Shown here: positions 652 through 18,962 of the stretch, in pieces
Layout of the letters: each line of letters starts with the position of its first letter
Position numbering within the stretch: position 1 is the first letter of the stretch
DNA from: Syntrophorhabdus sp.
Lineage (GTDB): Bacteria; Desulfobacterota; Syntrophorhabdia; Syntrophorhabdales; Syntrophorhabdaceae
Direction of reading: 5' to 3'
Assembly (NCBI GenBank): GCA_012719415.1
Contig: JAAYAK010000214.1
Coordinates: 1 to 42,663 of the forward strand
Length of the DNA stretch: 42,663 bases
Made by a program: the position numbers and the translations under genes
Notes under the pieces: model-generated
Seen by the model: only the letters and a program-made list of their open reading frames with translations
Told to the model about the DNA's origin: nothing
Database searches by the model: none

Positions 652-999
652 TTAACAGCGAAGACTAAGGTTGTGCAGATATGCGCAGGTGGAGCCGGTA
701 GGACTGGTGAGGAGAGCTGCTACGGGACGTTTTCCTCCGGATGCGACAGGGATTGACCCGTTCTCCAGATATATTCCCGTATGAAACACTGAGGTCGACG
801 GCGGTCGGACAGGCCTGACGGCTGTCTTGCAGGATCCCCATTTCTGAGACAGAAGAAGGTTGGTGTGGCCAGAAACATCATTGCCGAAATCGTGCGGTAC
901 AGTGAAAAGGCTTGAACACAGAGGCCCTGAAGTCAGGGCGGCTATCAATAACAGGGCGAGAACAACGGCAGCACTACCTGCTGATCCATTTGCCTTCAT
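652..999 (-). CDS. Possible small secreted protein, unknown function
   Basis: ATG at 999 opens a 115-residue frame with an N-terminal hydrophobic run (about residues 10-24) that could be a signal peptide, then a Ser/Pro-rich stretch with a few Cys. I do not recognise a family. Support is mixed: codon use is less GC-biased than in neighbouring genes and there is no Shine-Dalgarno sequence. However, a promoter-like pair (TTGACA at 1034-1029, TGTAAA at 1012-1007) ends only eight bases before the ATG, so an mRNA would be leaderless or nearly so. It could be a real exported peptide or a chance frame next to a regulatory site. Confidence 0.35.
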   Translation of the reverse strand: MKANGSAGSAAVVLALLLIAALTSGPLCSSLFTVPHDFGNDVSGHTNLLLSQKWGSCKTAVRPVRPPSTSVFHTGIYLENGSIPVASGGKRPVAALLTSPTGSTCAYLHNLSLRC

Positions 1000-1643: not shown

Positions 1644-1690
1644 TCGTTCATTCAAGGGGGGCTCCGGGGTCACAGCAGGGGGGATAGTGT

Positions 1691-1717
1691 TTGACAATGG
1701 TTCTCCGATAATGTAAA
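1691..1717 (+). promoter_or_regulatory. Arylsulfatase promoter
   Basis: TTGACA (1691-1696) and TGTAAA (1712-1717), spacer 15, about 40 bases before the sulfatase start. The stretch TTGACA..TAATGTAAA..TGG.AAAA is closely matched upstream of the sulfatase maturase at 8769-8796, with one base of length difference, which suggests co-regulation. Confidence 0.6.
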
Positions 1718-1757
1718 CAAAGTCTGGAAAAAATACCTTCAGCGCAGAGGAGTGATG

Positions 1758-4181
1758 ATGGGACGAAGGGTCAGCTTTACGAGTTTGGGTATTGCCGTTG
1801 GAAGTATCATTGCTGCAGCGGCCGGGGCGCAGACGACGGTTGATCGAACCGCCTTGCCAGTATCGGAGCCTGATTACCCGCACAGCACCGTGCTGGATGT
1901 GCGGAAGGCGACACCTCCGCCGAGGTTTGAGGTGAAGGCGCCGAAGGGTGCTCCCAATGTGCTTGTCATACTCCTCGATGACATGGGGTTCAGCCAGCCG
2001 GGCACCTTTGGCGGGCCGATCCATATGCCCACCCTGCAGCGTCTGGCGGATCAGGGTCTGCGCTACAACAACTTTCATACCACCGGTGTCAGTTCGCCCA
2101 CGCGGGCGGCGCTTCTCACCGGGCGGAACCACCATACCTGCAACGCGTCGCTGGTGATGGAGATGGCAACCGCCTTCCCGGGGGCCACCGGCCAGCGCCC
2201 CGTCAGCGTTGCTCCCCTGGCGACGATGCTGCGCTACAACGGCTACGCCACGGCGGCATTCGGCAAGAGCCACGAGACCGCCGCGTGGGAGGTGAGCCCT
2301 TCGGGGCCGACGGACAGGTGGCCGACGCGCAGCGGCTTCGACAAATTCTACGGTTTCATTGGCGGCGAGGCGAACCAGTGGGCGCCCGCGCTCTATGATG
2401 GTATGACCAGGGTGGAAACGCCGAGCGACCCGAATTATCATCTTATGACGGACATGACCGATCAGGCCATCAAGTGGGTGCAAGCGGAGAAATCACTTAC
2501 CCCCGACAAACCGTTCTTTGTGTACTTCGCTCCCGGTGCGACCCACGCGCCCCACCATGTGCCGAAAGAGTGGATCGCGAAATACAAAGGGAAGTTCGAC
2601 CAGGGCTGGGACAAATTGCGGGAAGAGACGCTGGCGCGGCAGAAGAAACTGGGGGTGGTGCCTCCGGACACGAAGTTGGCGCCCAAGCCCAACGCCATCA
2701 AGGACTGGGACAAGCTGAGCCCTGACGAGAAAAGGCTTTTTGCCCGCCAGATGGAGATATATGCCGCCTTCGGTGAGTACGCCGATTTCGAGGTCGGCCG
2801 GCTCATCGATGCGATCGACAGCATGGGGCAATTGGACAACACGCTGGTCTTCTACATACCGGGTGACAATGGTGCCAGCGCCGACGGGGGCATGAGCGGC
2901 CTTTTCAATGAGATGGCCTTCTTCAACAAAGTGGATGAAAACATTGCCGATATTCTGAAGCGCATCGACGATCTGGGTGGGCCGATGACATACGGGCACT
3001 ATGCCGCGGGCTGGGCGGTTGCGGGAGACACCCCGTTCACCTGGACGAAGGCGGTGGCCTCCAATTACGGGGGCACCCGTAACGGGATGGTCGTCCGCTG
3101 GCCCGGGAGGATCAAGGCCAGGGGCGAGCTCCGCTCGCAGTGGCACCATGTGATCGATATCGCCCCGACCATCCTGGAGGCCGCGGGCCTGCCCGAGCCG
3201 AAACGGGTGGATGGCATCGAGCAGACCCCCATCGAGGGTGTGAGCTTCCTTTACACCTTTAACGACGCCCGGGCAAAAGACCGCCACCTGGTCCAGTATT
3301 TCGAGATAGCCGGCAACCGCGGCATCTACCATGACGGCTGGCTTGCCGGCACCGTGCACAAGGCGGTGTGGGAGGCCGCTCCCCGGGCTTCCCTGGAAAA
3401 GGACAGGTGGGAATTGTATAATACACGGACCGATTTCAGCCTCGCGTACGACCTGGCGGCAAAGCATCCCGACAAACTCAAAGAGATGCAGGACCTCTTC
3501 ATGACCGAGGCGGTGAAGTACCGGGTTCTGCCCATCGACGACCGTATTCAGGAACGCATGAACGCTGCCGTTGCCGGTCGTCCGGACCTGATGGGCGATC
3601 GGACGTCGCTCACCGTCTACGAAGGAATGCGGGGTATGTCGGAGAATGTTTTCATCAACGTGAAGAACCGGTCTCACTCGATTACCGCAGAGGTGCAGGT
3701 GCCCCGCGATGGTGTCCGGGGAGTTGTCCTCGCCCAGGGCGGACGGTTCGGGGGATGGAGTCTCTACGTCAGGGACGGAAAACCGGCATTCACTTACAAC
3801 TGGCTCGGTCTCAAGCGTTACACTGTCGCCTCTCCGAAGAGCCTGCCTTCCGGGAAGGCGACCATCCGTTACGAGTTCGTCTATGACGGCAATGGCTTCG
3901 GCAAAGGCGGTTCGGCCACGCTCACCGTCAACGGTGAGAAGGTCGCCGAGGGGCGCATCGAGGGTACGCATGCCTTCATCTTTTCACCTGACGAAGGGGC
4001 CGATGTCGGTCTTGACGGGGAGACGCCGGTCGTGGAGGACTATGGAGTCCCGGCACCCCACAGGTTCACGGGCAAGATCGACAAGGTCACCGTCGACGTG
4101 AAAGAGATGGAAAAAGCCGACAAAGCGGAGGAAGACAAACTGCGGGCAGACCTGGCCGGCAAGAAAGCAATGGCTGATTGA
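1758..4181 (+). CDS. Secreted arylsulfatase, serine-type active site
   Basis: About 807 residues; signal peptide in the first 25 residues (RR, then a hydrophobic run ending AAAAGA-QTT), so it acts in the periplasm or outside. Sulfatase domain: metal-binding DD in VILLDDMGF (about 74-75), the formylglycine motif SSPTRAALLTGR (about 112-123), further metal ligands in GDNGAS, then a long C-terminal beta-rich part. The modified residue is Ser (codon AGT) where many sulfatases have Cys. Ser-type enzymes depend on a radical-SAM maturase, and one is encoded at 8822. Reaction: hydrolysis of sulfate esters; substrate unknown. GTG at 1752, ATG at 1755 and ATG at 1758 are all in frame; AGAGGAG (1746-1752) best fits 1758. 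It converges on moaA. Confidence 0.93.
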   Translation: MGRRVSFTSLGIAVGSIIAAAAGAQTTVDRTALPVSEPDYPHSTVLDVRKATPPPRFEVKAPKGAPNVLVILLDDMGFSQPGTFGGPIHMPTLQRLADQGLRYNNFHTTGVSSPTRAALLTGRNHHTCNASLVMEMATAFPGATGQRPVSVAPLATMLRYNGYATAAFGKSHETAAWEVSPSGPTDRWPTRSGFDKFYGFIGGEANQWAPALYDGMTRVETPSDPNYHLMTDMTDQAIKWVQAEKSLTPDKPFFVYFAPGATHAPHHVPKEWIAKYKGKFDQGWDKLREETLARQKKLGVVPPDTKLAPKPNAIKDWDKLSPDEKRLFARQMEIYAAFGEYADFEVGRLIDAIDSMGQLDNTLVFYIPGDNGASADGGMSGLFNEMAFFNKVDENIADILKRIDDLGGPMTYGHYAAGWAVAGDTPFTWTKAVASNYGGTRNGMVVRWPGRIKARGELRSQWHHVIDIAPTILEAAGLPEPKRVDGIEQTPIEGVSFLYTFNDARAKDRHLVQYFEIAGNRGIYHDGWLAGTVHKAVWEAAPRASLEKDRWELYNTRTDFSLAYDLAAKHPDKLKEMQDLFMTEAVKYRVLPIDDRIQERMNAAVAGRPDLMGDRTSLTVYEGMRGMSENVFINVKNRSHSITAEVQVPRDGVRGVVLAQGGRFGGWSLYVRDGKPAFTYNWLGLKRYTVASPKSLPSGKATIRYEFVYDGNGFGKGGSATLTVNGEKVAEGRIEGTHAFIFSPDEGADVGLDGETPVVEDYGVPAPHRFTGKIDKVTVDVKEMEKADKAEEDKLRADLAGKKAMAD

Positions 4182-4230
4182 GCGATGGACCCCAGAGCTC
4201 ACTTTTCCTGATAGCCGCTTTTTCCCGGGG

Positions 4231-5211
4231 TCATCCACCGATGCGGTTCATGGGGCGTACACAATTGCGGGGCATCCATTCCCGCACTCCGTGGCTTGCC
4301 GGTTTGTTGAGAATGGTCTCTTCGATCAACCGGAGGAGGACGTCATCTCCTTCACCCCTTCTCAGGGGGGTCCTTATGTCGGTTTCGTCGTCGGAAAAAA
4401 GACACCCCCTCAGTTGACCGGAGGCCGTCAACCTGAGCCTGTTGCACCTTGCGCAGAAATGGTTGCTCAAGGCGCCGATAAAACCTATCATCCCGCGGGA
4501 CCCTTCAAGCCTGTAATAGTCGGCGGGTCCGTCGAGGGGCCCCGATCCCACGCGAACCGTCTTGCCGAGTGGAAGGATGCGAGCGAGGATCTCTTCCGCT
4601 GAGATGAATCTTTCCTTGCTCCAGCTGTTGTTCTCCCCGATGGGCATCATTTCTATGAACCGGATGCGGTAGGGTTTCTCAAGGGTCAATCGTGCAAAAT
4701 CGAGAACCTCGTCATCGTTGACGCCGCGCAAGGCGACCACGTTGATCTTGATGGGATCGAATCCGAGCGACTCCGCTTCTTCTATGCCTGCCCATACCTT
4801 ATCGAAGACGTCCCGCCGGGTGATGTGCGCAAAACGGTCTCTCCTCAAGGTGTCCATGCTCACGTTTATATGACGTATCCCGCATTGCCTCAGGCTGGAG
4901 GCAAATTCCTTCAAAAGAACCCCGTTTGTCGTTACGGCTATCTTCTCAAGCCCTTCGATCTTGTTGAGTTTTTCGATGAAACCGACGATCCCCTGTCGTA
5001 CAAGGGGCTCTCCCCCGGTCAGCCTCACTTTCCTGATACCTTTCCTGACACATAGTCTCACCACGCGAAGCATCTCTTCATACGTGAGAATATCGTTATG
5101 CGGAACGAATCGGATGCCCTCCTCCGGCATACAATAGATGCAGCGGAGATTACACCGGTCCGTCACCGAGAGACGGAGATAGTTGATGGTCCTGTTGTGA
5201 TTGTCAACCAT
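4231..5211 (-). CDS. moaA: GTP 3',8-cyclase MoaA (molybdenum cofactor step 1)
   Basis: Complete, 326 residues, the usual MoaA length. It has the radical-SAM cluster CNLRCIYC (C20, C24, C27), the SAM-binding TGGEPL stretch, a second C-terminal cluster motif CARC..(13)..C, and the diagnostic Gly-Gly C-terminus (NRIGG) needed for the reaction. It converts GTP to 3',8-cyclo-7,8-dihydro-GTP with MoaC. No other moa/moe gene is in the window, so it stands apart from its pathway. A hairpin lies in its leader, just after the ferredoxin gene, and no strong ribosome site precedes the ATG. It converges with the sulfatase with about 50 bases between them. Confidence 0.96.
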   Translation of the reverse strand: MVDNHNRTINYLRLSVTDRCNLRCIYCMPEEGIRFVPHNDILTYEEMLRVVRLCVRKGIRKVRLTGGEPLVRQGIVGFIEKLNKIEGLEKIAVTTNGVLLKEFASSLRQCGIRHINVSMDTLRRDRFAHITRRDVFDKVWAGIEEAESLGFDPIKINVVALRGVNDDEVLDFARLTLEKPYRIRFIEMMPIGENNSWSKERFISAEEILARILPLGKTVRVGSGPLDGPADYYRLEGSRGMIGFIGALSNHFCARCNRLRLTASGQLRGCLFSDDETDIRTPLRRGEGDDVLLRLIEETILNKPASHGVREWMPRNCVRPMNRIGG

Positions 5212-5228
5212 GGGCGATCGTGGAAAGC

Positions 5229-5252
5229 CCCGCCAGCCTTACGGCGGGTTTT
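5229..5252. terminator. Hairpin between the ferredoxin genes and moaA
   Basis: CCCGCC (5229-5234) pairs with GGCGGG (5243-5248) around an eight-base loop; TTTT follows on the plus strand and only CTTTCC on the minus strand. It could end ferredoxin transcripts weakly or act in the moaA leader. Confidence 0.4.
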
Positions 5253-5268
5253 CTCGGATCATCGAAGA

Positions 5269-5442
5269 TTACGGAAGCGAGACCGCGCCGTTCGTGCACG
5301 CCTCCATGCAAATACCGCATTCGACGCAGGTCTCGGGATCAGCCGCGGCCAGCCCGTCGTTCACCGTCATCGCCTCAAGAGGGCACGCCTCAGCGCAGGA
5401 ACCGCATCCGGTACATTTCGTGCTGTCGATGATAACTGCCAT
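5269..5442 (-). CDS. 2[4Fe-4S] ferredoxin
   Basis: 57 residues starting MAVIIDSTKC; GGAG lies ahead of this ATG, so the upstream in-frame extension is rejected. Two classical cluster motifs: C10-x2-C13-x2-C16-x3-C20-P and C39-x2-C42-x2-C45-x3-C49. Clostridial-type low-potential electron carrier for the cytoplasm. The stop of the larger Fe-S protein is two bases upstream, so the two are co-translated. A partner enzyme cannot be named from this window. Confidence 0.95.
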   Translation of the reverse strand: MAVIIDSTKCTGCGSCAEACPLEAMTVNDGLAAADPETCVECGICMEACTNGAVSLP

Positions 5443-5444
5443 TG

Positions 5445-5957
5445 CTATTTCTCCTTTTTCGTTGATAGTGGTGTTGTGTCTGCCGCGCGCGGTATCTCCG
5501 CCAGGCTTATGGCGTCCTGGGGGCATTCAGCAACGCACCGTCCGCAACCGGTGCATCTCATGGTGTCGATCGCGGCCGCTGACCCCACGGTGATGGCGCC
5601 GGCCGGACAGACCCGCGCGCATGCCCCGCAACCCGTGCACCTTTCGACATCCACCGACGCCTGGCGGCGGGGGCTGGTTCTTTGCGGACTTGCGGACCTG
5701 CCGGGGAAGGGCGAAACTCTCGGGCCCGCTGCCGGAAAACGGGTTGACCGCGCATCGTCGATCCCGTAGACCCCGCCGCCATCCTGTCGCGGCCCCGTGT
5801 GTCCTGACGGCATCATTCTGCCAAACAGGGCAAAGACAGAAGACAGGAACCCGGTCTTTGCGGTAGCCGAGGTCCCGCGGGCGCCGATACCGCGGCGGTT
5901 GCCGCCGCCCCCGCGCGATCCGGCTCCACGCCCGCCTCTTCTACCGCCTTTTCTCAT
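5445..5957 (-). CDS. Gly/Arg-rich protein with C-terminal 2[4Fe-4S] ferredoxin domain
   Basis: 170 residues from ATG at 5957, chosen because AAGAAGG lies eight bases before it; an in-frame TTG at 5963 is too close to that site. The first 30 residues are nearly all Gly and Arg, resembling RGG-type nucleic-acid-binding tails. A Pro/Ser/Arg linker follows (about 35-100), then two CxxCxxCxxxCP motifs in the last 65 residues. The ferredoxin part implies electron transfer; the basic tail is unusual for a ferredoxin and its role is unknown. It forms a two-gene operon with the small ferredoxin downstream. Confidence 0.85.
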   Translation of the reverse strand: MRKGGRRGGRGAGSRGGGGNRRGIGARGTSATAKTGFLSSVFALFGRMMPSGHTGPRQDGGGVYGIDDARSTRFPAAGPRVSPFPGRSASPQRTSPRRQASVDVERCTGCGACARVCPAGAITVGSAAAIDTMRCTGCGRCVAECPQDAISLAEIPRAADTTPLSTKKEK

Positions 5958-6245
5958 GTTCAAAACCTTCTTTCATGGCATGTGTCCTTGCCGGCCACGC
6001 ATCTCCGGAGATGTTATATCTCTCTGCCCATCGTGAGATCACGGGCCGCCTGCTGACCGACAACAGGTACCTTGCAAGTCCCATACCCTTGGCAGGGTTA
6101 TCAGCATAACACTGTAATCACTACATGTTAGAAAACAGACGGAGAGGACAGGTTGACCTGATAGACGCAATATGCACTCTTATAACGCGGGTGAAATTGC
6201 AGTATGCAATGTTAAAAGGGTCCGGAGACGGGATGAACCCGTGCG
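5958..6245. other. Intergenic region with a 14-bp palindrome
   Basis: No gene seen. CATCTCCGGAGATG (6000-6013) is a perfect palindrome. On the minus strand TATAAC (6018-6013) overlaps its edge and could be a -10 element for the Fe-S operon, which would place a repressor-type operator on it. I see no convincing -35. Confidence 0.4.
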
Positions 6246-7031
6246 TCATGTGAAGCAGGATCTGTCGATAACGCCGAAGATCCCGTCGATGCGATCCGAC
6301 GGCGGCAGGGCTTCGCGGATCATCTCAAGGTACCGACATTCCCTGACGCGGTCCAGCGTGGGTCTGAAATTGATGTCAAAGACCCATCCTATCTGAAGCA
6401 GTTTAAAATCGTTGAGGTTCTTTATGTGGCCTATGCTCACTATCCTCCTGTTCATGAGGTCATGATAGACCTCTTCCGAGAATCCAGGCGTGTCGGGCAG
6501 ATCAAGCTCGATGGCCGTGTTGCGGTCTTTATCCTTCCGGGAGTAATAGTCCGTAACCACCTTCCATATGTCCAGCTTGTCGGCGTCGCGCACCAGTCTT
6601 GAGTAGAAAAGACACGTTTCGGATTCGTCGGAGGGAAGCGAAGCCCTGTTGTGGTACCGAACAGACCTGACGATGAGGTCGCGTACCGCATCGTCAAAAA
6701 GCTCCAGTATCCCGGTCGCCGTGATTATGGCCACACTTAATTCGGCATGGTTCTCCGATCTTCCATCCACGAAGGTGTGATAGCGTGCGTACTGCTCGAA
6801 GCGGCCGACGTCATGGAGCATGGCGATGATCTCGGCCAGACGCAGCTCATCCTCGTTCAATCCCAGCTGTGTCCCGAGGGATGATATCTCCGCGCACACA
6901 CGCAGGGTGTGCCATTTCTTCATGTCGATGTTCTGCTGCCTTTCGGGCTCGCTGTACTGGAATGTGTGAACGTAATCCCAGAACCACCCCTTCAGTTCCT
7001 CAACCCTCTCACCGCTGACCGATATCCGCAT
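6246..7031 (-). CDS. HD-domain metal-dependent phosphohydrolase
   Basis: 261 residues from ATG at 7031 (AGGGG ten bases ahead); an in-frame ATG at 7055 would add eight residues but lacks a site at good spacing. The HD signature is visible as an early His (KWHTLR, about 41), MLHDVGRFEQ (about 71-80) and DADKLD in the second half, the H..HD..D set of metal ligands. Family members cleave phosphate or phosphodiester bonds in nucleotides; the substrate here is unknown. Last gene of a minus-strand series behind the J-domain gene. Confidence 0.85.
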   Translation of the reverse strand: MRISVSGERVEELKGWFWDYVHTFQYSEPERQQNIDMKKWHTLRVCAEISSLGTQLGLNEDELRLAEIIAMLHDVGRFEQYARYHTFVDGRSENHAELSVAIITATGILELFDDAVRDLIVRSVRYHNRASLPSDESETCLFYSRLVRDADKLDIWKVVTDYYSRKDKDRNTAIELDLPDTPGFSEEVYHDLMNRRIVSIGHIKNLNDFKLLQIGWVFDINFRPTLDRVRECRYLEMIREALPPSDRIDGIFGVIDRSCFT

Positions 7032-7085
7032 TTTCCGGTTTCCCCTGTTATCCATCCGTCGCTCTGACTGACCTTTCCCTGGTTC

Positions 7086-7388
7086 TCAGGGTTTCCCCCA
7101 CAGGGGGTCGCTGCCGAATTTCTCGAACCACCATTCCTCGGCGGACAGGTATCTCTTGACCTCTTCCTCGGCAAAGGAATACTTGTACTCCTCGCAGTAG
7201 CTGACAATGATGCCGTAGGCGGTGATGATCTTCCGCGTCATCTCTTCGCACCTGTCCTTGTCCTCCCGGCACCTGTCCGGGTGCCAGAGACTGATGAGTC
7301 GTCTGTAGCTCGATTTGATCTCGTCCATCGAGGCCCGTTCGGGCAATCCCAGGAGTTCCTTCGCCTCAAGAATGTCCTTGTACTTCAT
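7086..7388 (-). CDS. Small J-domain (DnaJ-like) protein
   Basis: 100 residues, essentially one J domain: helix I (ILEAKELLGL), helix II with basic residues (IKSSYRRLISL), and the HPD motif at residues 36-38 (LWHPDRC), needed to stimulate DnaK ATPase. There is no Gly/Phe region, zinc domain or client-binding domain, so it is a minimal type III co-chaperone that probably brings DnaK to a specific client. GGGGAGGAG precedes the ATG. Its neighbours, a methyltransferase upstream and an HD hydrolase downstream, are in the same operon but do not reveal the client. Confidence 0.9.
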   Translation of the reverse strand: MKYKDILEAKELLGLPERASMDEIKSSYRRLISLWHPDRCREDKDRCEEMTRKIITAYGIIVSYCEEYKYSFAEEEVKRYLSAEEWWFEKFGSDPLWGKP

Positions 7389-7406
7389 GATCGATGCTCC
7401 TCCCCG

Positions 7407-8051
7407 TCAATCCTTGCGGGCCCGGATGACGGCGAAGAGTCCCTCCCCGTGGCCGGTCCTCACCGTCTCGTCCTGACCGATGCGCGATGCCTGCTCAAAG
7501 ATGGTCTGTCGAAGGTCGAAGTCCCGGAAGCCCGTTTGGCGGAGCATATCGAGGACCTCGGCAACGGAATAGAACCTCGCGTGCCGGTAGAACGGGCTCG
7601 TCTGTTTCCGCTCCCCGTATGTCCGTCCCACCGGGCTCGCGCGGTCCAGCATCCCGATGACGATGGCACCGCCCCTTTTGAGGACCCTGAAGGATTCCTC
7701 AAATGCCCTGACCGCATCGGACACGAAACAGATGGCTGTCACCATCAGGATGCATCCCGCCGCCAGGTCCCTCACGGGAAGGTTCTCCGCGACGCCCCGC
7801 GCGACCGCGATTCCTCTTGCCCGCGCCATCCGCAGCATGCCTTCCGAAGGGTCGATCCCTACTCCGATCCCGAGAGGCGCCGCGAATCTGCCCGTTCCCA
7901 CGCCCACCTCTATCGCGGGATGAACCGTGGGTGCGAAAAGCGACCGGACCGCCCTCAACTCGGCATCATAGACGAACCGGTTCGCGTCGAACCGCTCGTC
8001 GTACCGTTCGGCACTGCTGGAGTAAGGATCATCGTCAACGATGCGCTCCAA
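7407..8051 (-). CDS. SAM-dependent methyltransferase (class I)
   Basis: 214 residues. SAM-binding motif I is EVGVGTGRFA (about 48-57), followed by the acidic IDPSEGML and, later, FRVLKRGGAIVIG, typical of the UbiE/small-molecule class I fold. Substrate unknown. The start is TTG at 8051 with GGAG about nine bases ahead; it begins four bases after the stop of the truncated ZIP frame, so translation is probably coupled. Confidence 0.85.
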   Translation of the reverse strand: MERIVDDDPYSSSAERYDERFDANRFVYDAELRAVRSLFAPTVHPAIEVGVGTGRFAAPLGIGVGIDPSEGMLRMARARGIAVARGVAENLPVRDLAAGCILMVTAICFVSDAVRAFEESFRVLKRGGAIVIGMLDRASPVGRTYGERKQTSPFYRHARFYSVAEVLDMLRQTGFRDFDLRQTIFEQASRIGQDETVRTGHGEGLFAVIRARKD

Positions 8052-8055
8052 GAGA

Positions 8056-8406
8056 TCAACTCCGTTGAAAGCAATACGCGAGGGCGAACATCAGACCGAG
8101 GCCGATGGCGAAGAACATGAAATGCAGTATGGCTCGCGAGAGCCTTTCCTGAGCCTTTATTTCCGGTATGAGGTCCGAGGCGGCGATGTAGATGAAACTG
8201 CCCGCGCCGAAGAGTACCAGCCCCGACACGCCAAAACTCTGTGACGCGATCCATGCGATCAGCCCTCCCAGGGGAAAGGTCAGGGCCGAGAACAGATTCC
8301 ACAGCAGGGCGCGGCGTTTGGGCCAGCCACCGTGGACAAGGACGCCAAAATCACCCAGTTTCTGAGGAAAAACCCCCGTTGGTTTACTGCCCGGCTTTCT
8401 TTTCAA
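8056..8406 (-). pseudogene. C-terminal fragment of a ZIP-family metal transporter
   Basis: Open frame of 116 codons (TTG start). From about residue 13 it matches the last half of ZIP transporters: FPQKLGDFGVLVHGG, the loop after the metal-binding fifth helix, then RRALLWNLFSALT and two more membrane helices with GSFIYIAASDLIPE. Full ZIP proteins are about 250 residues; the first four helices with the HxxxH metal ligands are absent, and the usual His-Glu before the PQKLGDF motif reads Val-Phe instead. The first dozen codons overlap the tail of the unrelated gene at 8384. This looks like a 5' deletion; alone it could not make a transport path. Confidence 0.75.
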
Positions 8407-8647
8407 GACCGACTATGTACTTCTGGCTTCCGTCGGGATAGGGAGGGTTGCACAATTGCCCATGCCATATGTTGCCCTTATCGTCCCTGAAATAGGCATC
8501 GCAGGATACGCTGTCCTCACCGTCCGGGTTGTCCCGTATGCAGTCGAAACCCGCGCAGGCGGCGACATACTCGACCACCTCGCCATAACCCCCATCGTCA
8601 TCTGACATTCCAGGCGGTATGACCACCATTATGCTTTGACGCCTCAT
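8384..8647 (-). CDS. Conserved-looking hypothetical protein
   Basis: 87 residues from ATG at 8647, chosen because GGAGG lies eight bases upstream; an in-frame GTG at 8731 would add 28 residues. It is acidic with no signal peptide or membrane helix. Visible features are VVIPPG near the start, GGYGEVVEYV, and a pair of short segments with Cys (ACAGFDCIRD and SVSCDAYF) before WHGQLCNPPYPDG. I do not recognise the family. First gene of the five-gene minus-strand series; it overlaps the ZIP remnant by 23 bases. Confidence 0.7.
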   Translation of the reverse strand: MRRQSIMVVIPPGMSDDDGGYGEVVEYVAACAGFDCIRDNPDGEDSVSCDAYFRDDKGNIWHGQLCNPPYPDGSQKYIVGLEKKAGQ

Positions 8648-8768
8648 CTCTTCATCCTCCGGCTCCTGTTGAGACACGCCTAAATGGTAATCCGATAACC
8701 CGAGGCATATCAACAGGATTCTATCCTCCACGCGCTCCCTTCGACGCGTTGGTTCTCAGGGATAGCAG

Positions 8769-8796
8769 TTGACAACGTTTCGCCCCTTAATGTAAA
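8769..8796 (+). promoter_or_regulatory. Promoter of the sulfatase maturase
   Basis: TTGACA (8769-8774) and TGTAAA (8791-8796), spacer 16, about 25 bases before the gene. The sequence TTGACAACGTTTC..CC..TAATGTAAA..TTTGG.AAAA parallels the arylsulfatase promoter at 1691-1717. Confidence 0.6.
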
Positions 8797-8821
8797 TAGA
8801 ATTTGGTAAAAGGGGAGGGAA

Positions 8822-10075
8822 ATGGCAGCGGAAGGCATTCATGTTATCGCTAAACCCATCGGTCCATCGTGCAATCTCCGATGCGAGTATTGCTTTTACC
8901 TCGAGAAGCACGGACTCTATCCTGAGGACGAGAAATACCGCATGACCGATGGCGTCCTTCGCGCCTTCATCGCCAACCATGTCGCGTCTCAGCCGACCCC
9001 CGTCGTCGAGTTTGTCTGGCAGGGCGGCGAGCCAACCCTTCTGGGACTCGATTTTTTCCGGCGCGTCGTCGAGCTCCAGAGGTCTCTTGGGGGCGCAAAG
9101 ACTATCACCAATTCCCTGCAGACGAACGGGACGCTCCTCACCGATGAATGGTGCTCCTTCCTGAAAAAAGAGAATTTCATGGTCGGTATCAGTCTCGACG
9201 GACCGAGGGAGGTCCACGACCGCTATCGCCGCGACCGCAAGGGAGAGGGCACCTTCGACGCCGTCATGCGGGGCCTCAGGCTCCTGCAGAAACACGGGAT
9301 CGAATACAACGTTCTTGCCTGTGTCGGGAGGGATACGGCCCGCCGGCCCCTCGACGTGTATCATTTCTTCAAGTCCGAGGGCATCGAGTTCATCCAGTTC
9401 ACACCGGTGGTGGAGCGCCTGGCGGACAGGGCCGGGGAGGACAGAGGCCTCAAGCTTGCCGGCCCCGCCGCCCTCGACAGGAAGGGGGAGGAGGCCAGGG
9501 TCGCTCCATGGTCGGTCGTTCCCGAAGAGTACGGCGATTTCCTCATAGCCGTTTACGAGGAATGGGTCCGCAACGACGTGGGCAGGGTGTTCGTCATGAA
9601 CTTCGAGTGGGCGCTGAACGCCTGGATCGGCAACCCTTCACCGGTCTGTGTTCACGCTGAGCGGTGCGGCCGGTCACTCGTCGTGGAACACAACGGGGAC
9701 GTTTACGCCTGCGATCATAGTGTCTATCCCGAATACAGGCTGGGCAACATCGGGACCGACAGGCTGACCGACCTGGCGGAAAGGTCGCTGCGGTCGGGGT
9801 TCGGGATCGCCAAGGAGACCGCGCTGCCTCGCTGGTGCAGGGAGTGTGACGTGCTTCGGGCATGCCGGGGGGGATGTCCCAAGCACCGCTTCATGACGAC
9901 CCCTTACGATGAACCCGGGCTTCACTACCTCTGCGAAGGGTACAGGAAGTTCTTTCTCCACATCAGAAAGTACTGCAGCGCCATGGCCCAGCTGCTGGAG
10001 AACGGCATCCCCGTCGCGCGGATCATGGACGCCATGAAGGGACCCCTGGTAATACGGCGCGGTCACAAGAGCTGA
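8822..10075 (+). CDS. Anaerobic sulfatase-maturating enzyme (radical SAM, SPASM)
   Basis: 417 residues. The radical-SAM cluster is CNLRCEYCFYLEK (C17, C21, C24), typical of anSME, with FVWQGGEPTLLG for SAM binding. The C-terminal SPASM part carries the further Cys set for two auxiliary clusters, including VYACDHSVYP, LPRWCRECDVLRACRGGCPKHRF and HYLCEGYRKFF. Members oxidise the active-site Cys or Ser of sulfatases to formylglycine without oxygen. The serine-type arylsulfatase at 1758 is the obvious client, and the two share a promoter design. Ribosome site AGGGGAGG. The general SPASM peptide-modifying class is the alternative, but the N-terminal motif and the nearby client favour anSME. Confidence 0.92.
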   Translation: MAAEGIHVIAKPIGPSCNLRCEYCFYLEKHGLYPEDEKYRMTDGVLRAFIANHVASQPTPVVEFVWQGGEPTLLGLDFFRRVVELQRSLGGAKTITNSLQTNGTLLTDEWCSFLKKENFMVGISLDGPREVHDRYRRDRKGEGTFDAVMRGLRLLQKHGIEYNVLACVGRDTARRPLDVYHFFKSEGIEFIQFTPVVERLADRAGEDRGLKLAGPAALDRKGEEARVAPWSVVPEEYGDFLIAVYEEWVRNDVGRVFVMNFEWALNAWIGNPSPVCVHAERCGRSLVVEHNGDVYACDHSVYPEYRLGNIGTDRLTDLAERSLRSGFGIAKETALPRWCRECDVLRACRGGCPKHRFMTTPYDEPGLHYLCEGYRKFFLHIRKYCSAMAQLLENGIPVARIMDAMKGPLVIRRGHKS

Positions 10076-11174: not shown

Positions 11175-11588
11175 TTAAGGGTTTGTGATCTCGGGGCCGA
11201 GTCCGAAATACGGCGATTGGCCTTGCTGGAAGGCTTCCAGGGTAAACTCGTAATCCCACACGTTGGCCCAGTTGAACTTGTAGCGTTCCATGACTTCCGG
11301 GCTTGTGATGTGCCGAAGGACGTGGTTCGGTTGAACGCCGTCCTTCAGGAAGATTGCCGGACTGCCAAGAAATCGGACCAGGTCGGCTGTTGATGGAATA
11401 GGTTCCCCCAGCTGGATCTTGACAATGTCTATATCGTCAACGATCCCGTCCCAGGTGGAGAACAGGAAATTGTAGACATCTTCACTCGGTATGTGGCGCC
11501 TCTTGCCCTGGTCGATCAGATAGATCGGGAAGGTGCCGGGGAGCCGCACCCGCAAACCGTTCAGGTCTGGCCGCAGATCTATTTCCAT
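11175..11588 (-). CDS. Hypothetical protein with two related Trp/Phe segments
   Basis: 137 residues, strong AAGGAGG before the ATG. No signal peptide. Two similar blocks can be seen: IYLIDQGKRRHIPSEDVYNF followed by a WDGIVDDIDI segment, and IFLKDGV..LRHITSPEVMERY followed by FNWANVW. The pattern (a displayed ligand or value, then basic residues, then I-P/T-S-x-x-V/T-Y) repeats in other bacterial proteins I have seen, but I cannot name the family. It lies between a methyltransferase and an alpha-amylase on the same strand. Confidence 0.75.
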   Translation of the reverse strand: MEIDLRPDLNGLRVRLPGTFPIYLIDQGKRRHIPSEDVYNFLFSTWDGIVDDIDIVKIQLGEPIPSTADLVRFLGSPAIFLKDGVQPNHVLRHITSPEVMERYKFNWANVWDYEFTLEAFQQGQSPYFGLGPEITNP

Positions 11589-11710
11589 AGTCCATTCCTC
11601 CTTATTGCGTTATGAATCCCTGGAGTTGCCTGTATTCGCGACACTTGTCTCGGTGGCTGAGATCACCCCGCCCGTCATTCAAGGGTGCTCCACGCATTTT
11701 TTCACCGAAT

Positions 11711-13048
11711 CTACGATTCCGGCCCGTAGACCACATAGCCCCTGGGCGGCGCCTCGACCTGGCACCATCCGTTCCCGTCGGTGGTGACCGTCGCCGGGCT
11801 CGTCGATGAATATCTTCCCCGCCAGGCCAGCGGTTTCAGCATCTTGTTCGGGAAGACCGTTCTTACCCTTTGCGAAACCGTCTCGCCCATGTTGTTCAGG
11901 GTGAACACCAGCCCCGGCTGATCCCCGAACCCGGTTCGCTCCATAACGTAGAAGACGTCATCGACATAGAGGACATTGGTGCCCCCTCCGGCGCGGCTCT
12001 CGTGGACCTTGGTCAGCCGTTCGATCCCGCTTGATTGTCCGGGCTCGGCCAAGCCGTAAGTGGACCAGTCTTTCCAGAAAACGCAGGGATACCCTTCATG
12101 TGTCAGGATGTACGCGTAGGCCATCATCTTGTCGTTGATGATCTCGTCGGAGCCGTCCCCGCGGAAGTCGTGGTTGTCCACGAAGGTCACCGCCTCGAAG
12201 GGCCGGTCCTTGGAAAGCACGCCGCCATTGGCAAGGTTTCGAAGGCTGAAGCCGTATGTGTCGCACATGTCCTTCAGCCGGTACCGGAGAGGGAAGTCGA
12301 AGGCGCCGACCCGGTGTTCAGCCCAGGCGTTTACCGAGTCGAGCCAGTTATCGATGCAATTGTCGCCGTCCCAGCACTCTCCGACGCCGAAGATGCTAAC
12401 GGGTTGACCACCCCGTTTGTATTTTCGGTCGTGGATCCCCCGCACGATCCAGGAGCCGAACCCTTTGACGAAGTCATATCTGAAGCCGTCGAAGCCGATC
12501 TCCTCAACGAGCCACCTGGCGTGGTTCAGGATGCCCGCCGAGACGCGGGGATTGATATGGCACAGATCGGGCATGTCGCCGAAGGCGCCGCTGGTGTATT
12601 CCGGAAAAGGGCTGGGGTTGAAACAGGTCCAGTCCCGGGTGAAGAGCTTGCTCGCCGGCTTGAACAGGGTCCACCGCTCCTGCCGGGCGATGGGATTGAA
12701 TTCCTTCCCGTCGGCCCCGTTGTTGTGGTTGAGGACCAGGTCCGCGTAGACCTTCATCCCCTGCTGGTGCGCCGTTTCGATCATAGCCCGCAGTTCATCC
12801 TCCGAGCCGAACCAGGTCTTCACCGATCCTTTCTGGTCGTATTTCCCCAGATCGTAATAATCATAGACGTCATACCCCATCGACATGCCGCCAATGTTGG
12901 CGGCCTTGCTCGCGGGCGGGAGCCAGAGTGCCGTAAAGCCCGCCGCCTTAAGGCTGGGGAGTTTCCCGGCAATGTGATTCCACCAGGTGAACTCCTGTTG
13001 ATCCACCCTGGGGCAGTCCCAGTAGAATCCTTGCATTATGACGCCCAT
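11711..13048 (-). CDS. Cytoplasmic alpha-amylase (GH13)
   Basis: 445 residues starting MGVIMQGFYWDCP; GGAGGGGG lies just ahead, so the longer in-frame extension to 13162 is rejected. All four GH13 regions are present: DLVLNHN, GFRYDFVKG (nucleophile Asp), GVGECW (acid/base Glu) and FVDNHD (transition-state Asp). The start and the run ALWLPPASKA..SMGYDVYDYYDLG resemble the archaeal/plant-type GH13_7 group. There is no signal peptide, so it probably degrades an internal alpha-1,4-glucan such as glycogen. A C-terminal beta domain ends in APPRGYVVYGP. No other glycogen gene is nearby. Confidence 0.95.
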   Translation of the reverse strand: MGVIMQGFYWDCPRVDQQEFTWWNHIAGKLPSLKAAGFTALWLPPASKAANIGGMSMGYDVYDYYDLGKYDQKGSVKTWFGSEDELRAMIETAHQQGMKVYADLVLNHNNGADGKEFNPIARQERWTLFKPASKLFTRDWTCFNPSPFPEYTSGAFGDMPDLCHINPRVSAGILNHARWLVEEIGFDGFRYDFVKGFGSWIVRGIHDRKYKRGGQPVSIFGVGECWDGDNCIDNWLDSVNAWAEHRVGAFDFPLRYRLKDMCDTYGFSLRNLANGGVLSKDRPFEAVTFVDNHDFRGDGSDEIINDKMMAYAYILTHEGYPCVFWKDWSTYGLAEPGQSSGIERLTKVHESRAGGGTNVLYVDDVFYVMERTGFGDQPGLVFTLNNMGETVSQRVRTVFPNKMLKPLAWRGRYSSTSPATVTTDGNGWCQVEAPPRGYVVYGPES

Positions 13049-13734: not shown

Positions 13735-13787
13735 GAACCAAAGTGGCCCCGGGCTGGATCAGCGAGTGCCTGATCATCTTCTGCGAC

Positions 13788-13928
13788 ACGCCCTCAGGAG
13801 GGTGCAAGCTATCGGGTTGGGGCAAAGACCTCTCGAAGATGGTCCTCGACGAATACACGATGACCAAGCCCATCTATATCGATCTCACGGGCGAACGCGT
13901 GAAGCCCCGGTGCGGATTGCTGAGATAG
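13788..13928 (+). pseudogene. C-terminal relic of an aldehyde dehydrogenase
   Basis: One reading frame ends PSGGCKLSGWGKDLS..LDEYTMTKPIYIDLTGE, which is the final part of NAD(P)-dependent aldehyde dehydrogenases (the usual form is PFGG-K-SG-GRE, then LDxYxxxKxVYxxL). Only about 40 residues are left, with no start, no catalytic Cys or NAD fold, and unrelated sequence before it. It is not related to the intact mmsA at 29617, whose end is different. A decayed gene or rearrangement end. Confidence 0.65.
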
Positions 13929-13943
13929 GCGAAGCCGCAGCCC

Positions 13944-13972
13944 TTGTCGAATTGCGGGAGATACGGTAGAAT
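13944..13972 (+). promoter_or_regulatory. Promoter of the periplasmic-binding/PAS sensor
   Basis: TTGTCG (13944-13949), 17-base spacer, TAGAAT (13967-13972), about 50 bases before the start codon. Confidence 0.5.
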
Positions 13973-14021
13973 TTGTTGTGATGGCCGTTGCGGCGGGGTG
14001 GCGCGGAAACGAGATGATGAG

Positions 14022-15857
14022 ATGATGGACCGGCGCGGTATAAAGTGTTCAATCTGGTGTGCGTGCGCGCTGGTCGTCTTGTTGGCGTTGTGCGTTCCTC
14101 ACACCCTGGGTGCCCGGCAGGGCGCCAGGATCCTGCTCATCAATTCCTATCACGACGGGTTCAAGTGGTCCGACGACATCGTTTCCGGGGTGAGGTCGGT
14201 CCTCGGCAAGGACGATGACCTGAGGATCGAGTACATGGACGCGCGCAGGATCTCCACCCCGGAATACCTCCGCAGCCTGCGGGAGTCTTTCCGTATCAAG
14301 TTCAGGGGTCATCGGTACGACGTGGTCATCGTTTCCGACGACCCGGCCCTCGACCTGATACTGGACCTCGGAGAAGACCTCTTTCCCTCCACGCCCGTCG
14401 TGTTCTGCGGGATCAACGATTTCTCGGACGCGAGGTTGATGGGGAAAACCCCGTACACGGGGGTTGTCGAAGAGATAGACATCAAGGGCACCCTGGATGC
14501 GGCCCACGCGCTGCATCCGACGGCGGTGAGAGTGATCGCTCCCGTCAACTCCAACGTGACGGGAATCTCCAACAGGCACCTGCTGGAGGCCACGATCCCC
14601 GCCTTCAAGGGCGTATTCGAGTTCGAGATAGTGGAGGACCCCGAGCTTGGGCCCTTCCTTGAACGCTTGAAGGGCCTGCGAAAGGATGAGCACGTCATCC
14701 TGCTCACGGGGAGGTTCCGGTCGTCGGCCGGCGAGGGGATACCAATAGAGACGAGCACGCCTGAGATCGCTAAGGAGGGCATCCCTGTCTACAGCATGTG
14801 GGAGTACTACCTGGGTCACGGCATTGTCGGCGGAATGCTCACCAACGGTTTCTACCAGGGGAAGACGGCCGGCGAGATCGCCCGGAGGATCCTCGGCGGC
14901 GAAAAAGACATCCCGGTGGTCAGGAGGAGCCCCAATCAGTATACCTTCGATTTCAGGCAGCTTGAGCTCTTCGGCATCGAGGAGGACCTGCTGCCGGCGG
15001 GGAGCGTCGTCGTCAACAAACCGGTGTCTTTCTATGCCAGGCACGCCGACGCCGTTCACGCGGGCGCGGGCATCATCCTTTTTTGCCTCGCCGCCGTAGC
15101 CTTCCTGTCGATCCTTGTGGTCAAGAAGAACAGGGCCGAAAGGGAACTGCGCCGCTATCAGGACAACCTGGAGGTACTGGTGGAGGAAAGGACCGAGAGG
15201 CTGAACTTCGCCAACGCTTCATTGACCGCGGAGATACGGGAGCGGGAACAGGTCGAGGCGGCGCTCAGGGAGAGCGAGGAGAAGTACCGCATACTCATAG
15301 AAAAGGCGAACGAGGCGGTCATCATCGTGCAGGATGAGGTCCTCGTCTTCGCCAACCCCAGGGCGTACGAGCTCGCGGGTGTACCGGCAGGGACCCTGGA
15401 AGGAAGACCTTTCGTCGATCTCATCTGGCCCGAGGACAGGGACATGGTCATGGGGAAGTACAGGAAGCGGATCGCCGGCGAAAGCGTGCCCGACGCCTAC
15501 GATTTCAGGCTCGTCGGCCCCGGGGGCGCGTTCATCTGGGTTTTCCTGTCCGCCACCACGGTCCTCTGGAAAGGCAGACCGGCGACACTTAACCTGCTGA
15601 CGGACATATCGGACCGCAAGCTCGCGGAAGAGGAACGGGAAAGACTCATCGCCGAGCTTCAGGACGCCCTTTCCCAGGTCAAGACATTGAGCGGACTGCT
15701 CCCCATTTGCGCCTCGTGCAAGAGGATACGGAACGACGACGGCACCTGGGAGCAGATGGAGGCGTACATAAGGGACCGGTCGGAAGCGAAGTTCTCCCAC
15801 GGCATCTGCCCCGAGTGTGCCGGGAAACTCTACGCGGACCGATCCCGGAAGAAATGA
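14022..15857 (+). CDS. Membrane sensor: periplasmic ABC-type binding domain, PAS, C-terminal CxxC/CPxC module
   Basis: 611 residues from the ATG pair at 14022/14025; the ribosome site is weak. Order: signal peptide (1-31), an ABC_sub_bind-like periplasmic domain (about 35-340, beginning ILLINSYHDGFKWSDD), one membrane helix (about 345-366), coiled coil, PAS domain (about 425-540), a second short coiled coil, then a terminal module with C563-x2-C566 and C596-PE-C599. No kinase, GGDEF or HTH is present, so the output must be the Cys module or a partner protein. A ligand bound outside is presumably relayed inside. The same module ends the proteins at 22004 and 33695. It converges on the FIST/kinase operon, about 120 bases apart. 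Confidence 0.88.
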   Translation: MMDRRGIKCSIWCACALVVLLALCVPHTLGARQGARILLINSYHDGFKWSDDIVSGVRSVLGKDDDLRIEYMDARRISTPEYLRSLRESFRIKFRGHRYDVVIVSDDPALDLILDLGEDLFPSTPVVFCGINDFSDARLMGKTPYTGVVEEIDIKGTLDAAHALHPTAVRVIAPVNSNVTGISNRHLLEATIPAFKGVFEFEIVEDPELGPFLERLKGLRKDEHVILLTGRFRSSAGEGIPIETSTPEIAKEGIPVYSMWEYYLGHGIVGGMLTNGFYQGKTAGEIARRILGGEKDIPVVRRSPNQYTFDFRQLELFGIEEDLLPAGSVVVNKPVSFYARHADAVHAGAGIILFCLAAVAFLSILVVKKNRAERELRRYQDNLEVLVEERTERLNFANASLTAEIREREQVEAALRESEEKYRILIEKANEAVIIVQDEVLVFANPRAYELAGVPAGTLEGRPFVDLIWPEDRDMVMGKYRKRIAGESVPDAYDFRLVGPGGAFIWVFLSATTVLWKGRPATLNLLTDISDRKLAEEERERLIAELQDALSQVKTLSGLLPICASCKRIRNDDGTWEQMEAYIRDRSEAKFSHGICPECAGKLYADRSRKK

Positions 15858-15980: not shown

Positions 15981-17753
15981 TCATTTCGTCAGCTCTTCTT
16001 TCAGGGCTTTGCCCAGCTTGGCGATGGTGTATGGTTTCTTGATGAAGACCCCCGCTCCCATGTGCTGGGCGGCGATGACGTCCTCGCTCATGGAATAGCC
16101 GCTTGCTATCACGGCCTTCTGTCCCGGATGGATCTCGCTTATCCTCCTGTATGTTTCCATTCCGTTCAGGCCCGGGTCCATGATCATGTCCAAAAGGACG
16201 ATGTCGACGGGACGGTCCTTCAGGTACTCGAGGGCCTTTTCGCCGCTTTCCGCGGAGTTGGCCACGTATCCGAGCTTTGTCAGTATGGCACAGGCGGTCT
16301 TCCTCTGGTCTTCGAGATCGTCGACGACGAGGACGGTCTCGCCGTTTCCCCGGTAATCGTCAAATCGCAGGAAGGAGGGCGTATCGGCCAGGGCTTCACG
16401 GATGGCGGGAAAGTAAAGGAGGAATTCCGTTCCCTCCGTGCCCGTCATCACGTCGACGTAACCGCCGTGGTCCTGCATCACGTTCCAGACGATGGTGAGG
16501 CCGAGCCCGGTGCCGCTCCTGCCCATCTTCTTCCTGGTATAGAAGGGTTCGAAGATGCGCTCCAGATCTTCCGGTGAGATACCGGTGCCGTTGTCACGCA
16601 CGGAAACGACGGCGTACTCGCCCGCCCGCACCTCCGTGTAAGCCTTGAGGGGCCTGTCGACGTACCTGTTTCCCGTTCTCACGAGGATCCGCCCGCTCCC
16701 TGTTCCCTGCAGGGCCTCGACGGCATTGTAGATAAGGTTCATCATGGCCTTCGTTATGTGGATGGGTGAACCCATGATGTTGAGGAGGTCGCCTCCGAGG
16801 TCCGTCTCTATCACGACCCCGTCGTCAGCCTCAAGCAGTCTCTGGTGCTCCGGTGATGACAGGTAGTTGTCGATGAGGGGGTTCAGGTTCAGAGGTTCCC
16901 TGGGGCTGGCCGCGCCCTTTGCCACCGTCAAGAGGTCGTCGACGACGGCGGCCGCGCGGAGTCCCGCGTTCCTGATGGCCTCGATCGCCTCTCTTTGCTC
17001 GGGCCGCATGTCATCGTCCATGAGCAGGAGGTCCGGATAGCTCACGATCCCCGTCAGGATGTTGTTCAGGTCGTGCGCCACTCCCCCCGCGAGAAGGCCG
17101 ACGGCCTCCATCTTCTTCGCCCGGGAAAGCTTCTGTTCACTTTCCGCCAGGCGGCGGTTCAGTTCGGCCATGCTTGCCTGCGTTTCCAGTTGCTTCTCGA
17201 GGTCCGCGAGCTTTTCGTCGGACTCGAGCTTTTGCAGCGCCTGGGTCGCCAGCACGGAGAAACGCCGTGCCAGGGTCACGTGGTTCTTGGAGAAATGCGC
17301 CCGGTCCGGATGCGTGCAGACGATGATGGCGTGGTTGTCTGCCGTTCGGATCGACAGGTGGAGGGCCGAGCGGGCTGCTCCCAGCACCTCTTCCGGCTGT
17401 TTGTTCCATTCTTCAACGAGATTTGTGTCGAAAACGGCGACAGGCTGGCCCGCGAGGACCCTTCGCAGCATGGCCGCCGGCCGCCAGACCCTGTGGGCGA
17501 AGACGGGATTGGAGGCCGTGAGCGTAACGAGGGCCCCGTCGTTGTTCTGAAGGAGGACAAAGGCCGAATCGAAATCAAGGGGTTCCTTCATGGCATCGAA
17601 GAGCTGAGCGAACAGGGTGTGCGGATCCTTGCCGGTGACAAGGACACGGAGTCCGTTGAGGAGCGCCTCGGCCATCTGCCGGTGGAGCGCTTCCTTCTTC
17701 CGGGCTTCCTCGAGATCAAGCAGGGCCTCCCGCAGTTCTTCCGATGTGCTCAT
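15981..17753 (-). CDS. Hybrid histidine kinase: GAF, HisKA, HATPase, receiver
   Basis: 590 residues, no membrane segment. GAF-like domain (about 35-175), coiled coil (178-212), HisKA with phospho-acceptor H227 in GGVAHDLNN, HATPase with N box MNLIYNAVEAL, G1 DNGTGIS and G2 GTGLGL, and a C-terminal receiver with phospho-acceptor D522 (VLLDMIMDPGLNG). It can autophosphorylate and pass phosphate to its own receiver, but no output domain follows, so it needs a further protein. It begins three bases after the FIST gene stop, so the two form an operon and probably one signalling unit. Confidence 0.93.
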   Translation of the reverse strand: MSTSEELREALLDLEEARKKEALHRQMAEALLNGLRVLVTGKDPHTLFAQLFDAMKEPLDFDSAFVLLQNNDGALVTLTASNPVFAHRVWRPAAMLRRVLAGQPVAVFDTNLVEEWNKQPEEVLGAARSALHLSIRTADNHAIIVCTHPDRAHFSKNHVTLARRFSVLATQALQKLESDEKLADLEKQLETQASMAELNRRLAESEQKLSRAKKMEAVGLLAGGVAHDLNNILTGIVSYPDLLLMDDDMRPEQREAIEAIRNAGLRAAAVVDDLLTVAKGAASPREPLNLNPLIDNYLSSPEHQRLLEADDGVVIETDLGGDLLNIMGSPIHITKAMMNLIYNAVEALQGTGSGRILVRTGNRYVDRPLKAYTEVRAGEYAVVSVRDNGTGISPEDLERIFEPFYTRKKMGRSGTGLGLTIVWNVMQDHGGYVDVMTGTEGTEFLLYFPAIREALADTPSFLRFDDYRGNGETVLVVDDLEDQRKTACAILTKLGYVANSAESGEKALEYLKDRPVDIVLLDMIMDPGLNGMETYRRISEIHPGQKAVIASGYSMSEDVIAAQHMGAGVFIKKPYTIAKLGKALKEELTK

Positions 17754-17756
17754 ATG

Positions 17757-18962
17757 TTACCCCGTTCTGCTGTGCCCCAGGAAGAGGGTGGCGATCATCA
17801 GGTTGCCATGGCGGTTCTCTCCGCCGATGAAACACCCCTGCTCTCCCAGGGTGAATGAACAGAGAAACGGCCTGTTCGGCAGGATGCCTTTCAAGTCCGC
17901 GACGATCTGGTCCATCCGGTCCCGGACAACAAGCATGCACCCGGCACAGAAGAGCATCAACGCCCCTTCCGTCTCGCTGGCGGAAAAAGGGGCGCTGTGG
18001 ATCGCCGCCTTCGCGACCCTCCCGGCCCTGCTGGCGAGACTCGCGGTAGTGCCCTTCATCAGCACGACCTCAGAGCCCTGCTGGATCTCGGCGAAGAGCT
18101 CAAGCCCCTTATCCGGGAGCGAAGCAGTCGGATAAGAGAGCTTGTGATAGACGACCCCTCCTACCTGCCCCACGGGCTGGCCAAGGGGTGTGAAGCTTGT
18201 CGTGGGCACGAGGCTTCCTCCCCCGCTGAGCGTGTCCGCGATCAGGCCATCCGTCCATTCATTGTAGACCGTTGCGGCGGGCCGGCCATCTATCTCGTGG
18301 AGAACACGGCCGGAAACACGGGTTGCCCGCCCCCTGTGCTCGGTGGGCTCGTAACCGCTGTGAAAGGCGTAGCTCGCATGTCCGGAGGGGAAGAAGACGG
18401 CCACGGACACTCCGTCGGAGACGACGCCCTCGTTCGCGAACTGTTCCCACTGACCGGTCATGTCGTTATCCGCGGAAGTCCCTCCCAGGATGGGAACGTC
18501 CGCTCCAAGGTAGGCCTCGATGGCGCGTATCATCGTTTCCTCGTTCCCGGGGCAACTTGTTATGACGATGGCGACCGGCAGTTCCCCCGGTCTGCCCGCC
18601 TGTTCGAGGGCCCGGGACAGGGCCGATACGGCGGCTTTCGCGGGGTCATCCCCCTGTCTCGCGATGCCCGCGCCATAGCTGCCATCGGGATCGCAAATGC
18701 CAAGAAGGCCGAGTCCGAACCCATCCTCTGTATGGAAACCTTCCTCGGTGACAACGCCGAGGCATGTGGTCCCTCCCTGCAGGGATGCGGCCGGGGCAAG
18801 TGAGCGGAGGCGCTTCAACACGATAGCGTTATCGTAGGCGCATGAGCTGTGAAGAAGGATGAAATGAGGGGTGTCGCCAAGCTTCGCGGACATTCTGCCA
18901 AAAGCTTCTTCGGCTGCCATCCCCGGGTCGGAATTGGTCGACCAGCCTGAGGCAAGTTTCAT
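17757..18962 (-). CDS. FIST-domain sensor protein
   Basis: 401 residues from ATG at 18962, preceded by GGAGG; an in-frame ATG at 18989 lacks a site. Both FIST_N (about 20-210, with TPHFILLHSSCAYDN, GGTTCLGV and PILGGTSADNDM) and FIST_C (about 215-385, ending PFLCSFTLGEQGC) are visible. FIST domains are predicted input domains for small ligands, possibly amino acids, usually fused to or encoded beside kinases or chemoreceptors. Here it is a stand-alone protein immediately upstream of the hybrid kinase, so it probably feeds that kinase. Confidence 0.92.
   Translation of the reverse strand: MKLASGWSTNSDPGMAAEEAFGRMSAKLGDTPHFILLHSSCAYDNAIVLKRLRSLAPAASLQGGTTCLGVVTEEGFHTEDGFGLGLLGICDPDGSYGAGIARQGDDPAKAAVSALSRALEQAGRPGELPVAIVITSCPGNEETMIRAIEAYLGADVPILGGTSADNDMTGQWEQFANEGVVSDGVSVAVFFPSGHASYAFHSGYEPTEHRGRATRVSGRVLHEIDGRPAATVYNEWTDGLIADTLSGGGSLVPTTSFTPLGQPVGQVGGVVYHKLSYPTASLPDKGLELFAEIQQGSEVVLMKGTTASLASRAGRVAKAAIHSAPFSASETEGALMLFCAGCMLVVRDRMDQIVADLKGILPNRPFLCSFTLGEQGCFIGGENRHGNLMIATLFLGHSRTG

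Follow-up and report, generated by a model that had tools for sequence, protein, structure and literature searches.

The locus and the question it raises

Upstream of an arylsulfatase gene and of the gene of its maturase, which lie 4.6 kb apart in a contig of Syntrophorhabdus sp., stands nearly the same promoter, which raises the question of how two separate genes came by it and whether it serves as a regulatory site of their own. The window, that is, the whole stretch of DNA that was analysed (42,663 nucleotides), is the entire contig C214 of a draft genome of 3.7 Mb in 329 contigs. The two genes and those that separate them are as follows.

1758..4181, plus strand: Ser-type arylsulfatase, 807 aa, with SSPTR motif (Pfam Sulfatase, 7.5e-60)
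4231..8731, minus strand: eight separating ORFs, namely MoaA, two ferredoxins, HD, DnaJ-like, methyltransferase, truncated ZIP and o115 (ORF list and profile searches)
8822..10075, plus strand: anaerobic sulfatase maturase, anSME (TIGR03942, 489.3 bits against a cut-off of 349.45)

The sulfatase was assigned to the Ser type by its Pfam Sulfatase fold together with an S-x-P-x-R motif, SSPTRAALLTGR in translation, which is common to the relatives that carry an anSME. Its best solved relatives are the arylsulfatases 4cxk/1hdh, and its ORF may instead start at GTG 1752 or ATG 1755. The maturase, whose solved relative is the anSME 4k36-4k39, has a shorter N-terminus than the operonic homologues compared. 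The identities proposed in a preliminary description of this DNA, a Ser-type sulfatase and a radical-SAM maturase, were thus confirmed by the SSPTR motif with the Pfam Sulfatase match and by a TIGR03942 score above cut-off, as was the separation of the coding regions by minus-strand genes (4181 to 8822, 4.64 kb, eight ORFs). With 4.6 kb and eight opposite-strand ORFs between them, the two genes do not form the usual operon of adjacent, same-strand, co-transcribed sulfatase and anSME genes. Dependence on an anSME for activity is established for the Ser-type family, so the window sulfatase would need its maturase and shared expression is expected.

Similarity of the two promoters

The motif reads TTGACA-N12-TAATGTAAA upstream of the sulfatase gene (1691-1717, plus strand) and TTGACA-N13-TAATGTAAA upstream of the maturase gene (8769-8796, plus strand), within the following segments.

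1681..1732, plus strand: sulfatase promoter segment, with -35 TTGACA at 1691-1696, a spacer of 17 and a probable -10 TAAACA at 1714-1719
8759..8811, plus strand: maturase promoter segment, with -35 TTGACA at 8769-8774, a spacer of 18 and a probable -10 TAAATA at 8793-8798

The near-identity first reported was upheld and extends further than described, since local alignment gave 39 identical columns out of 53 in the pattern GGGATAG-N3-TTGACA ... TAATGTAAA ... TGG-N-AAAA, in which the reported run matching at TGG and AAAA is included. Outside the -35 and -10 elements, 24 of 38 positions are identical, so the likeness reaches beyond the hexamers. The alignment scored 23.5, compared with at most 21.5 in 20,000 dinucleotide-shuffled pairs (Gumbel p ~2e-6 for the whole alignment), and the TTGACA-spacer-TAATGTAAA pattern did not arise in any of 100 dinucleotide shuffles of the window. 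For comparison with other upstream regions, a 479-kb sample was drawn from stretches across this genome, in which 10 of 22,366 pairs reached the score of the promoter pair. We take these ten to be repeated elements, presumed as such because the same few regions keep recurring. The next best partner of either promoter in the sample scored 13-15, and none exceeded 15. A search for an RNA element gave no match in Rfam.

Frequency of the motif and type of promoter

Across the entire 3.7-Mb genome, TTGACA-N10-16-TAATGTAAA occurs three times, each time inside the window. This genome search had been proposed at the outset, on the understanding that matches before many unrelated genes would mark the housekeeping promoter form of the organism; with just three exact matches, that reading was rejected. 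The looser TTGACA-N14-18-TGTAAA has five matches in the genome, and so has TTGACA-N17/18-TAAAYA, three of them in the window.

TTGACA itself is an ordinary -35 element in this genome, since 16 of its 43 occurrences upstream of genes have TAnnnT 16-18 bp further on, but only 2 of 132 within genes do (479-kb sample). The three window sites fit the same frame, their spacings being 17, 18 and 18, and their -10, TAAACA or TAAATA, is atypical. Against sigma70 criteria, the -35 is perfect and the spacing is 17 or 18, the -10 TAAAYA agrees with TATAAT at three of six positions, and a consensus scan did not report the promoters. The window promoters have the -35 and the spacing in common with the housekeeping sigma70 promoter of the genus (TTGACA-N16-18-TAnnnT) but differ from it in a -10 that is rare in the genome. 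Of note, a conserved promoter-like TTGACA-N16-TGTAAAAG was found in the genus, at loci L079 (in the window genome), L103, L101 and L107; it precedes a gene starting MLSARAASLKPSPTLAISAKEKALKAQGIDI in L079, and similarly in L101 and L107.

Distribution among sulfatase loci and the third copy

The third match, absent from the preliminary description, lies on the minus strand.

1034-1007, minus strand: third copy, TTGACA-N13-TAATGTAAA, an exact match upstream of an orphan ORF
652..999, minus strand: orphan ORF of 115 aa with a hydrophobic N-terminus

This ORF gave no match in Pfam or NCBIfam and has no known link to sulfate esters. Among the genomes searched it turned up in just four, which belong to a single genus and in which it is open with a dN/dS of ~0.4-0.55, and the third copy is kept upstream of it in G003, G008 and G010. 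Its ATG falls 8 nt past the TGTAAA, so that its mRNA would be nearly leaderless if the third site were its promoter; ahead of the ATG, too, the frame stays open, and the site could thus partly be coding sequence.

The proposal of a dedicated sulfatase regulatory site was not supported. The suggested check, whether the motif precedes other sulfatases or sulfate-ester genes, found it absent ahead of the other sulfatase-maturase operon that this genome has (G000:C272) and upstream of sulfatase orthologs at 71-77% identity in relatives, and the third match precedes the orphan ORF. A regulatory site common to sulfatases at large was rejected in the same way, as ~95 sulfatase loci lack the element upstream, G011 excepted. 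The exact motif is rare in relatives (7 of 60 genomes), and matches in G003, G004 and G009 (L005, L008, L011) were discarded, being judged from sequence to lie inside the ribosomal-protein S5 gene. Judged by where it occurs, the motif is neither the usual promoter form nor the mark of a sulfatase regulon.

Comparison with relatives and rearrangement of the locus

Most Ser-type relatives with a maturase nearby carry it on the same strand, directly downstream, usually ~2.5 kb after the sulfatase start, as in G009, G002 and the C272 operon; Cys-type relatives in the set have no maturase nearby. Given this usual arrangement, the window pair was read as a split operon. The earlier statement that the shared promoter is not a matter of operon sharing is true of the present arrangement; it missed the history, since sulfatase and maturase usually share an operon and the two promoters look like duplicates from its split.

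The sulfatase of G011 is 94% identical to that of the window over the first 160 residues, homology between G011 and the window begins at 1683, and upstream the gene carries TTGACA and TGTAAACA at the window spacing with a diverged spacer. Past about residue 160, an insertion sequence that contains a transposase-like ORF breaks the gene (L081:2883-4568). G008, rated 100% complete, has an intact Ser-type sulfatase (L076:5248-7671) and, 3.5 kb downstream, a degraded maturase remnant (11191-11653); its sulfatase may lack the modification, or else the system may be decaying. A maturase was sought in G010 and not found.

G005 has the same neighbourhood with neither sulfatase nor maturase, and the blocks compared are as follows.

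G005, 11735-12268: csp
G005, 13737-14089: o115
G005, 16424-17389: HD
G005, 17383-17759 and onward: ZIP, full length
Window, ~8357..8369, no strand: rearrangement junction beside the maturase, at which the ZIP block ends (G005 17759) and the o115 block begins (G005 13737)
Window, 8056-8406, minus strand: truncated ZIP transporter gene, which keeps the C-terminal 103 aa and has a new N-terminus from the o115 block

The order csp, o115, HD, full ZIP in G005 thus corresponds in the window to csp, sulfatase, the intervening genes, HD, truncated ZIP, o115 and maturase. ZIP is full length (247 aa) in both G005 and G011, so the window represents the derived state, and its truncated ZIP is probably a non-functional remnant. 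A head-to-tail junction of this kind, 17759 joined to 13737, is what tandem duplication leaves.

A probable split operon with duplicated promoters

We consider it reasonably probable (roughly 0.6), from sequence comparison, that the twin elements are duplicated sigma70-type promoters (TTGACA-N17/18-TAAAYA) that have kept the two genes co-expressed after their operon was split. In the proposed history, one such promoter would have driven an ancestral sulfatase-maturase operon, placed by inference between o115 and HD, and a unit of o115, promoter, sulfatase, maturase, HD and ZIP would have been duplicated in tandem. Copy one would then have lost o115 and the maturase, leaving promoter and sulfatase, and copy two the sulfatase and HD-ZIP, leaving promoter and maturase (the order of the deletions is likewise conjectural). 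The outcome would be the present gene order, with one promoter copy per gene and unrelated minus-strand genes between; a deletion that fused the promoter to the maturase would give the shorter maturase N-terminus. This account builds on direct observations: the promoters are alike, relatives mostly have the pair as an operon, ZIP is truncated, and the blocks stand head to tail with respect to G005.

Several points count against this history. Remnants of a deleted sulfatase or maturase were sought at the expected scars and none was found, nor did any genome have the operon at the place proposed, between o115 and HD. Both -10 hexamers have A as their last base in place of T. The promoter identity of 73% implies that the duplication would be old or that the promoter evolves fast, and G011 and the window also differ considerably in this promoter. 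The history leaves the third copy unexplained; its inclusion in the same promoter duplication was rejected because its likeness to the others is confined to the motif (scores of 13.5 and 10, which are ordinary). If the promoter was copied along with both genes, enzyme and activator would probably still be expressed together. Both promoters are predicted to be active and the genes co-expressed, and the co-expression envisaged earlier is plausible.

Alternative explanations

A regulator specific to these sites, or an alternative sigma factor, might read TTGACA-N15/16-TGTAAA and govern a three-gene local regulon of sulfatase, maturase and orphan ORF, which we regard as unlikely. The three exact matches of the genome all fall within 8 kb, the TAAAYA form is similarly concentrated here, and the third site is kept in three relatives; the half-sites TTGACA and TGTAAA are partly inverted repeats, and GATAG is common to both sulfatase-system promoters and G011. 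Against it, the ORFs annotated in the first 13 kb of the window include none recognised as a regulator gene, the 1-bp variation in spacing is more in keeping with a promoter than with the operator of a dimer, and the second sulfatase operon of the genome lacks the element. Moreover, G008 has the third site and none before its sulfatase; the region upstream of the G010 sulfatase is unassembled. The fuller form, in which a putative regulator acting through TTGACA-N15/16-TGTAAA plus GATAG would switch sulfatase, maturase and a possibly secreted orphan protein together, seems less likely still. If a local regulon were true, the orphan protein would be a new component of sulfate-ester use.

Unrelated sigma70 promoters, alike through a strong -35 and a similar -10, would agree with the ordinary standing of TTGACA in this genome and with other TTGACA-N15/16-TGTAAA promoters in related genomes, for example before a tRNA-Leu gene (read from sequence); they are improbable given the identity outside the elements, with either promoter clearly the best match of the other. 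Separate arrival of the maturase, for example by horizontal transfer that brought along a related promoter of some other sulfatase operon, has in its favour a locus that is highly variable among relatives (G005 has neither gene there and G010 no maturase), and is just as improbable, the o115/ZIP head-to-tail junction adjoining the maturase being explained more simply by local duplication.

Relation to known systems and significance

Gene pairs of a Ser-type sulfatase and a radical-SAM maturase, such as Klebsiella atsBA, have the same protein families and functional dependence as the window pair. They are adjacent and on the same strand in relatives, whereas in the window opposite-strand genes hold the pair 4.6 kb apart and a near-duplicate promoter stands before each gene. 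The break-up of operons with retained co-regulation is a known general process, in which once-adjacent genes become separate units with their own promoters, as in the window; the difference is that the second window promoter looks copied from the first, not newly recruited. Among the papers searched on promoters of sulfatase-maturase operons, on the duplication of promoters and on the break-up of operons, none had a title or abstract on this case.

The split pair is a neat instance of a known process and no new kind of switch. As an example it is easy to read, since the operon would have come apart with no obvious loss of the predicted co-expression. It also suggests that the expression of an enzyme can remain tied to that of its obligatory activator while in relatives one of the two is lost, as where the maturase is degraded in G008 or not found in G010, or the sulfatase is interrupted by an insertion sequence in G011.
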